Part shown: piece after piece, positions 56,681 through 59,334 of the stretch
Layout of the letters: each line of letters begins with the position of its first letter
Position numbering within the stretch: the stretch's first letter is position 1
Origin: Pseudobdellovibrionaceae bacterium
GTDB lineage: Bacteria > Bdellovibrionota > Bdellovibrionia > Bdellovibrionales > Bdellovibrionaceae
Length of the DNA: 64,000 nucleotides
Reading direction: 5' to 3'
Assembly (NCBI GenBank): GCA_016785955.1
Contig: JAEUWH010000082.1
Span: 62,001 to 126,000, forward strand
Position numbers and translations under genes: made by a program
The notes under the pieces: generated by a model
Told to the model about the DNA's origin: nothing
Database searches by the model: none
The model's input: the letters and a program-made list of their open reading frames with translations, nothing else

Positions 56681-58213
56681 ATGGCCGCAGAAATTTTGAT
56701 CAACGTAAGACCGCATGAAACTCGCGTGGCCTATGTGGATAAGGGCATTCTTACGGATCTTAAAATTGAAAGGAAAACATCCCCGACCATGGTTGGTTCG
56801 ATATTTCGTGGAGTTGTTTTACGGGTGTTGCCGGGAATGCAGGCCGCCTTTGTTGATATCGGTTTGGAAAAAGCCGCATTTCTGTATGTAGGGGATATTC
56901 GTGAAGATTTGGACTCGGACAGCTATCCCATCCCAGATTTAGACCGCGAAGAGCCTTTGGAGGAGACCTCGTTTGATGAAGAGGGCATACCTCAGAAAAA
57001 TGAGAATAAAACACCGATCCAGGATTTAATCAAAGAGGGCCAAGCGCTTTTGGTGCAAGTGGCAAAAGATCCTCTGGGGACAAAGGGGGCGCGACTCACG
57101 ACGCATATTTCTTTGCCGGGACGATTTGTGGTGTATTTGCCAACAATTCGTCATTTGGGAATTTCGCGACGAATTGAGCATGAAGAAGAGCGCGATCGCC
57201 TTAAGAATTTAGTTCAAAAAATAAATCCTCTGGGTGGTGTGATTGTGCGCACGGCGGGGGAAGGGGCTTCGGAAGAAAACCTGAAATCAGATGTTGATTA
57301 CCTGGATCGGCTTTCCAAAGAAGTTTTAAAAAACTACGAAAAACGAAAAACGCCCGGTCTTGTACACCAAGAACTCGAGGTAGAGCTTCGAGCCTTGCGT
57401 GATTTGATGAACGAGGAAGTGGCGACTGTATGGGTGGACGATAACGAAATTCACAAAAAAGTAAGCAAGTTTGTTTCGCAGTTAATGCCTAAATATAAGC
57501 AAAATATTATTTTGTACGAAGAGCCCAAGCCGTTGTTTGATTTATACGACGTGGAACTTGAAGTGTCGCGCTCGTTAGATCGGAAAATTTGGTTAAAATC
57601 AGGTGGTTACATAGTTATTGACGAAGCCGAGGCGCTGGTCGTCATTGATATCAACACGGGACGATTTGTCGGCAAAAAAGATCTCGAGGACACGATTTTA
57701 AAAACCAATTTAGAGGCGGTTAAAGAAATCGCCCATCAGCTGAGAATACGTAACTGTGGTGGAATTATCATTATTGATTTCATCGATATGGAAAAAGAAA
57801 GTCACCGTGAAAAAGTTTTAGAGGCTCTGAAAGAGGAAGTCTTAAAAGATCGCGGTAAAGTGAATGTGATGTCGATGTCATCGCTGGGTCTGGTTGAAAT
57901 GACCCGCAAGCGCACTCGACCTAGTTTGATTAAAACCCTATGCGAACCATGCAGTTATTGCGATGGTCATGGCTACATCAAGCGCAAATCGACAGTAGCC
58001 AACGAGATTTTTCGCGAGCTAGAGCGCGAGATCGGTATGATTGAAAATCCCAAGGCTACTTTTGCGATCCATTGCCGTAGCGAGATTGTGGACTGGATTT
58101 ATGAATTCGAAGGTAAGACTTTAGAGCATTTAGAGAAAAAGCTTAAGAAATCGGTCACCTTTAAAATCGAGCCCGGGTACCATATAGAGCAGTACGAGCT
58201 TTTCATTAAGTAA
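56681..58213 (+). CDS. rng: Ribonuclease G/E
   Basis: 510 residues; N-terminal S1-type RNA-binding region (~35-125, interrupted by an acidic insertion ~85-105), then the RNase H/DNase I-like catalytic core with IDINTGRFVG, DFIDME (Mg-binding Asp pair) and CEPCSYCDGHGY as the zinc link (~425). Length fits RNase G rather than RNase E, which has a long C-terminal tail. It matures 16S rRNA 5' ends and degrades mRNA. AAGGGATGGGCT precedes the ATG. Divergent from pilT. Confidence 0.92.
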   Translation: MAAEILINVRPHETRVAYVDKGILTDLKIERKTSPTMVGSIFRGVVLRVLPGMQAAFVDIGLEKAAFLYVGDIREDLDSDSYPIPDLDREEPLEETSFDEEGIPQKNENKTPIQDLIKEGQALLVQVAKDPLGTKGARLTTHISLPGRFVVYLPTIRHLGISRRIEHEEERDRLKNLVQKINPLGGVIVRTAGEGASEENLKSDVDYLDRLSKEVLKNYEKRKTPGLVHQELEVELRALRDLMNEEVATVWVDDNEIHKKVSKFVSQLMPKYKQNIILYEEPKPLFDLYDVELEVSRSLDRKIWLKSGGYIVIDEAEALVVIDINTGRFVGKKDLEDTILKTNLEAVKEIAHQLRIRNCGGIIIIDFIDMEKESHREKVLEALKEEVLKDRGKVNVMSMSSLGLVEMTRKRTRPSLIKTLCEPCSYCDGHGYIKRKSTVANEIFRELEREIGMIENPKATFAIHCRSEIVDWIYEFEGKTLEHLEKKLKKSVTFKIEPGYHIEQYELFIK

Positions 58214-58444: not shown

Positions 58445-59038
58445 ATGTACGCAGTAATTAAAACTGGTGGAAAACAATACACTGTAAAACCGGGCGATGT
58501 TGTTCAAGTTGAGAAATTAGAACAAAATTTGGGTTCTGAATTTGAAATTAATGAAGTTCTTATATTTGGTGGTGATACGACTGTCGTTGGTCAGCCTCTA
58601 GTTAAAGGTGCTAAAGTGACTGTTGTTGTAACTAAACAAGGTCGTGACAGAAAAGTGATCGTATTCAAAAAGAAACGTCGTCATTCTTTCCGTAAGTTCA
58701 AAAATCACAAACAACCGTTCACAGAGTTATTTGTTAAATCCATCACGTCTCCCGAGGGTAAAACAACAGCCTCTGAATCTCAGCCAGTTGTTACAGACAT
58801 GGCGGCGGCACGAGCTCAACGTATCCAAGATAAAGTTCAAACACGCAGAGAACGCGTTGAATCCCGTTTAAACAGCAACAAATCAGTTTCTGCTGAGGAA
58901 ACTAAGACAGTAACTTCTAAAAAGAAGGCGTCTAAAAAAGTTGCTAAAAAAGCTGTAGCTAAAAAGGTATCCCCTAAAAAAGCGGCGGCAAAGAAAGCAG
59001 CTAAAAAGAAAACATCAAAAAAAGCAGCTAAGAAATAA
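58445..59038 (+). CDS. rplU: 50S ribosomal protein L21 with histone-like Lys/Ala tail
   Basis: 197 residues against ~103 in most bacteria. Residues 1-102 are L21 proper: MYAVIKTGGKQYTV, then KRRHSFRKFKNHKQPFTELF. Beyond ~104 a Ser/Thr/Glu/Arg-rich linker (104-157) leads to residues 158-197, half of which are Lys in KKA-type repeats resembling the C-terminus of bacterial histone-H1-like proteins. GGAGG precedes the ATG. The tail would extend from the solvent side of the 50S subunit or could bind RNA; its role is unknown. Followed by rpmA. Confidence 0.92.
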   Translation: MYAVIKTGGKQYTVKPGDVVQVEKLEQNLGSEFEINEVLIFGGDTTVVGQPLVKGAKVTVVVTKQGRDRKVIVFKKKRRHSFRKFKNHKQPFTELFVKSITSPEGKTTASESQPVVTDMAAARAQRIQDKVQTRRERVESRLNSNKSVSAEETKTVTSKKKASKKVAKKAVAKKVSPKKAAAKKAAKKKTSKKAAKK

Positions 59039-59073: not shown

Positions 59074-59334
59074 ATGGCATCGAAGAAGGCGGGCGGTAGT
59101 ACCAAGAATGGACGCGATTCACAAAGTAAGCGTCTTGGCGTAAAAAGATTTGGTGGAGAGTCTGTATTACCTGGAACAATCATTGTGAGACAACGTGGAA
59201 CTAAATTCCACCAAGGCAACAACGTGCGTTTTGGTAGAGACTGGACAATCTATTCAATTATCGAAGGTGTAGTTAAGTTTGAACGTGAATCAAAAACTAA
59301 ACTTAAAGTTTCTGTGTATCCAAAAGCTGGATAA
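59074..59334 (+). CDS. rpmA: 50S ribosomal protein L27
   Basis: 86 residues. [20 protein letters not shown] is the conserved flexible N-terminus near the peptidyl-transferase centre, followed by [20 protein letters not shown]. The Ala after the initiator Met is direct, so no N-terminal cleavage extension like that of Firmicutes L27 is present. SD AAGGAG. Ends before a strong terminator. Confidence 0.97.

Follow-up and report, generated by a model that had tools for sequence, protein, structure and literature searches.

Many conserved low-complexity tails on bacterial ribosomal proteins have no known job, and one that is kept nearly throughout a bacterial class raises the question of what it does for its bearer. 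Such a tail is found on the bL21 encoded in the 64,000-nucleotide stretch of Pseudobdellovibrionaceae DNA analysed here (the window). An earlier note, written from the letters of the window, described the product as an L21 core of about 103 residues, a Ser/Thr/Arg linker and a nucleoid-protein-like tail of 40 residues, half of them lysine, that could bind rRNA, mRNA or DNA. We asked which parts of this description hold and what role the extension is likely to play.

The bL21 gene and its core

The features discussed below are as follows.

56681..58213, + strand: upstream open reading frame, which we take to be RNase G/E-like from its sequence
58445-59038, + strand: bL21 open reading frame, ATG to TAA, 197 aa
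58445..58753, + strand: bL21 core, residues 1-103 (PF00829, TIGR00061, AF2)
58754..58924, + strand: part of the extension predicted to be structured, residues 104-160 (AF2, class alignment)
58925..59035, + strand: Lys/Ala tail predicted to be disordered, residues 161-197 (composition, alignment, spacing, AF2)
59074..59334, + strand: intact rpmA (L27), the next gene after bL21

The product of 58445-59038 is a normal bL21 with a long positive tail that is common to the whole class. Pfam Ribosomal_L21p (PF00829) covers residues 1-100 (E 4.6e-34, 117.1 bits against a cut-off of 27), which bears out the core of about 103 residues in the earlier note, and the NCBIfam L21 model TIGR00061 scores 97.5 bits, above its cut-off of 43.7; the full core thus belongs to bL21 by both curated thresholds. 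In the AF2 model the pLDDT of the core is mostly 93-97, with dips at residues 71-90. The gene is preceded directly by a GGAGG stretch, is the sole L21 match at E up to 1 in the 4.34-Mb genome, and keeps the rplU-rpmA order, with L27 immediately after it and then an open reading frame that is presumably Obg-like. An Rfam search for an rplU leader gave only two matches, both far below the gathering scores, and a promoter scan at bL21 gave a single site, on the opposite strand, where shuffled sequences gave more.

In one class member (locus L025, genome G011, contig C1, about 103229-103843), an L21 without the end of its Lys tail continues in the same frame as L27, joining it at about profile residue 36. 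This one-contig genome gave no separate L27 match, three sister genomes have an intact L27, and the shift in the rplU-rpmA region against a sister genome is 218 bases. Either L21 and L27 are naturally fused there, with the N-terminus of L27 missing, or the contig is misassembled.

Composition and predicted anatomy of the extension

The extension comprises about 95 residues beyond the L21 core and carries a net charge of +22 over residues 104-197; that of the core (1-103) is +11. The last 40 residues consist of 20 Lys, 11 Ala, 4 Ser, 3 Val, 1 Thr and 1 Pro, so that the half-lysine tail described earlier is confirmed by count. In the window, 105 ORFs reach 60 aa, and bL21 ranks highest among them for its richest 40-aa stretch, in Lys alone (0.50, against 0.325 for the runner-up) as well as in Lys+Ala (0.775 against 0.45); the background in the ORFs of 150 aa or longer is 7.8% Lys. 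The DNA of the tail contains three runs of 6 A and one of 7, at which slippage might occur. A DNA pattern for Lys-Lys-x-Ala-Lys-Lys matched 8 times in the genome and 3 times in a reversed control; L21 is the only ribosomal protein recognised among the 8, in a search that other tail patterns escape, and 3 of the 8 fall in small Lys-rich ORFs. Small Lys/Ala-rich ORFs of the same genome, outside the window, encode a Lys/Ala peptide of 24 aa (L205), a short protein with a Lys tail (L203) and a basic-then-acidic protein (L209).

In the AF2 prediction, the extension begins with a strand at residues 107-109 and a helix at 119-160, with pLDDT values of 92 and 97 over 121-140, 84 at 141-150 and 58 at 151-160, and ends in a tail without predicted structure, where pLDDT falls below 50 at 163-177 and 179-194. 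Because few of the 26 sequences in the input alignment extend beyond the core, the predicted helix rests mainly on the protein's own sequence. The Ser/Thr/Arg composition of the linker stands, but its reading as a mere spacer does not agree with the predicted short strand and long helix. Hydrophobic moments of 0.06-0.37 over residues 116-166 gave no clear sign of an amphipathic helix.

An alignment of 105 class proteins whose extensions span 40 aa or more (genomes G258 and G011 left out) shows well-kept columns at G105 (99%), V116 (84%), D118 (81%), K/R123 (82%) and K/R126 (81%), and Lys pairs at columns that include 163/164, 173/174, 178/179, 183/184, 188/189 and 192/193. Lys doublets thus recur every 4-5 residues along the tail (161-197). 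In 104 tails, for which G234 was dropped besides G258 and G011, Lys-Lys pairs occurred at 1.33 times the frequency of within-tail shuffles at lag 4, 1.45 times at lag 5 and 0.43 times at lag 2, ratios that are descriptive rather than independent tests because the rows are related. The alignment columns were used in place of a strict regular expression for the linker, since the latter recovered no more than 81 of the 112 class proteins (and none of the 67 from outside the class).

Retention across the class and selection on the tail

We made the comparison of L21 lengths across the phylum that the earlier note had proposed. An extension was called Lys-rich when it was 40 aa or longer and Lys made up 30% or more of the final 40 residues. 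By this measure, 104 of the 113 L21 proteins read from the class are Lys-rich (the 113 being 43 of the 64 matched in family f1 plus one from every matched genome of f2-f11, 70 out of 77 searched), as against 6 of 67 elsewhere in the phylum, where the best-scoring loci were read rather than a random sample. By length alone, at least 40 aa is reached by 107 of the 113 and by 21 of the 67, the 6 Lys-rich proteins being among the latter. In family f1, L21 was matched in 64 of 66 genomes, and the open frames span 184-244 aa in 64/64, lengths that count residues 5' of the start. The class exceptions are six proteins with short extensions (G249, G221, G224, G225, G196 and G254), the fusion in G011, one with a Lys fraction of 0.28 (G233) and one without a stop within the fetched stretch (G234). 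Near-identical L21 extensions were also seen in two different families (L055 of G258 and L058 of G200); the G258 copy, still counted in the 113, probably lies on a contaminant contig, given this likeness and the 6% contamination of that genome. The Lys-rich extension is therefore a well-conserved, class-wide trait and not a peculiarity of one genome.

Outside the class the picture is different. In family f12, 1 of 30 proteins read extends 40 aa or more past the core, and most of the 30 terminate in a brief basic segment at 101-121 aa; the open frames cover 92 of 121 matched genomes, and G131-G134 and G180 are among those that reach 237-268 aa, with sequences unread, so that the contrast in tail length is strong, though not complete. 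Many of the f12 proteins (L172-L201) share a brief, conserved basic C-terminus of a form like K-I-D-x-x-S-x-x-A-K-K-x-L-K, which may correspond, in shortened form, to the helix region described here. Among the best 80 named relatives, the extension is shorter than 10 aa in 71 and longer than 15 aa in 9, and these nine include a Rhodospirillaceae MAG rich in Lys and Ala (L134) and two Bdellovibrionales MAGs (L062, L063), on whose account we take the class as Bdellovibrionia. Judging from the short or missing tails in many members of other classes and in those 71 relatives, the tail is dispensable to ribosomes generally. Within f2-f11, larger genomes tend to carry longer extensions (Spearman 0.49, n=68, relatedness uncorrected, G258 and G234 omitted, and sizes blurred by some incomplete genomes): extensions below 40 aa were found in 5 of 14 genomes of up to 2.1 Mb versus 1 of 54 larger ones, and in several small-genome members the tail is absent or a short, weakly charged stub. 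A tail that is nearly class-wide, lost or shortened in several small genomes and mostly absent outside the class offers natural comparisons for finding its role.

At the genus level, the tail is present in 6/6 genomes, the window's own included. By the Nei-Gojobori method with these six genomes, dN/dS is 0.00-0.34 for the Lys tail (153-197) in 9 of 15 congener pairs, 0.18-0.71 for the linker (102-152) in 14 of 15 and 0-0.14 for the core in all 15; the remaining 6 Lys-tail pairs are saturated at synonymous sites, with 22-26 synonymous versus 5-18 nonsynonymous changes. Purifying selection acts on the Lys tail, which from these ranges tends to be more tightly constrained than the linker and less so than the core. 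A sequencing or assembly error behind the extension is ruled out by this conservation, as the tail recurs in 6/6 genus genomes with mostly synonymous changes between near relatives.

Possible roles and known likenesses

From the charge of the tail, binding to rRNA, mRNA or DNA is plausible, and tethering to mRNA or DNA is possible. We lean, by a modest degree, toward an arm that faces the solvent on the 50S subunit and binds phosphates electrostatically and non-specifically, chiefly those of its own rRNA, and so aids folding or assembly and steadies the subunit. In the proposed mechanism, the normal core of bL21 would anchor the protein in the 50S subunit, the strand and the helix of about 40 residues would lift the chain off the core, and past the helix the flexible polycation of Lys doublets would contact phosphate backbones on the solvent side with no sequence preference; the subunit's own rRNA would be the main target, and its folding or assembly would be helped and the subunit steadied. 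The sole L21 gene, the retention in genus and class, the selection, the Lys spacing and the helix followed by disorder argue for this reading, and the short or missing tails in other classes, the small-genome losses and the thin alignment behind the helix count against it. The placement of the arm outside the 50S, with its polycation on nearby phosphates, is suggested by analogy with two other L21 proteins. Passages of PMC5071890 place chloroplast bL21c at the surface of the large subunit and describe chloroplast-specific ribosomal extensions as mainly solvent-facing. For the L21 chain of Flavobacterium johnsoniae (7jil_R), the sequence is 147 aa long and about 104 residues are modelled, so on a solved ribosome the extension of a bacterial L21 can go unseen, presumably because it is flexible. 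Proximity makes the subunit's own rRNA the likeliest target.

The same charge and length, +22 over 104-197 with the predicted helix as a spacer, would also fit an arm that extends away from the ribosome and links it to mRNA, DNA or further ribosomes, for instance to hold it close to the nucleoid or packed in a dormant stage, and L21 proteins of other bacteria carry C-terminal helix-hairpin-helix (HHH) domains at or near the cut-off; rRNA, however, supplies the nearest phosphates on the assembled subunit, and we regard such tethering as a minority possibility. The bolder form of this idea seems improbable to us: a class-fixed strand-helix-polycation arm would tether ribosomes to nucleoid DNA or to one another and so let these predatory bacteria pack and re-release their translation machinery between dormant and growth stages. 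It is also rather unlikely, if a little less so than that bolder form, that the tail is a cheap low-complexity run kept mainly since Lys/Ala repeats readily expand and a basic tail does a ribosome no harm: the drift of its length and exact residues and its shortening or loss in several small genomes, with the uncorrected correlation given above, would agree with this, but nonsynonymous change is restrained while synonymous sites vary, the spacing of Lys doublets is maintained, and the tail occurs in nearly all class members read.

Two further explanations appear less probable still. The tail might bind another polyanion, such as polyphosphate, or serve as a hub of lysine modification, and PMC9239181 describes a histone H1-like protein, AlgP, that acts on polyphosphate granules in Pseudomonas; no link of either kind was found for the bL21 tail in this analysis, and we think it quite improbable. 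Least probable of all is removal of the tail after translation to leave a mature protein ending near residue 103, against which the purifying selection on the tail speaks. The rRNA-binding arm remains the reading that we prefer.

With respect to known proteins, the likeness to nucleoid-protein tails noted earlier holds as one of composition, and homology to histone H1 was not detected. The tail shares with linker histones a Lys/Ala-rich basic character (Lys+Ala of 0.775 over the last 40 residues), with only 1 Pro here, and Pfam matches up to E 1 comprised L21 and an insignificant cupin, with no linker-histone match. Weak matches to the ends of the NCBIfam models of a valyl-tRNA synthetase and a topoisomerase I (E 0.00045 and 0.025, both far below cut-off) are taken to reflect shared composition. 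The NCBIfam families of extended L21, NF008916 and NF008915, likewise combine an L21 core with a C-terminal extension and align to residues 1-134 and 1-173, but the protein scores far below their cut-offs (101.6 against 193 bits and 83.8 against 281 bits) and so belongs to neither. The L21 proteins with a C-terminal HHH_5 match (L067, L075 and L096, with 27.9, 27.0 and 26.5 bits at a cut-off of 27) come from a Burkholderiaceae, a Hyphomicrobiaceae and a betaproteobacterial MAG. The HHH domain is frequent in DNA-binding proteins, and the L21 C-terminus thus seems to be a recurrent site for additions that may bind nucleic acid.

Histone H1-like Lys-rich tails on ribosomal proteins are described for mosquito RpL23a and RpS6 in passages of PMC11764897, although these are eukaryotic, involve other proteins and are of independent origin. 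HupB, TopA and AlgP are bacterial proteins with basic low-complexity Lys-rich tails as well, but they are DNA-binding or polyphosphate-linked and non-ribosomal. Literature searches for the L21 gene of Bdellovibrio, and for a lysine-rich extension of L21 under that wording, returned nothing relevant. The closest precedent is the survey of Ntountoumi et al. (2019, PMC6821194), which reports lysine-rich low-complexity C-termini on bacterial L21, with more than 30% Lys in 34 of the 45 L21 cases surveyed, and holds that Lys-rich LCRs suggest nucleic-acid binding; a Lys-rich L21 tail is, therefore, already known as a kind. The present tail is alike in protein, C-terminal location and Lys content, as its 20 Lys in the last 40 residues exceed that 30% by plain count. 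Compared with the section of the paper on those L21 cases, it differs in its clade-wide retention, predicted helix and Lys doublet spacing, and class-wide retention together with the predicted helix is what the present analysis adds to it.
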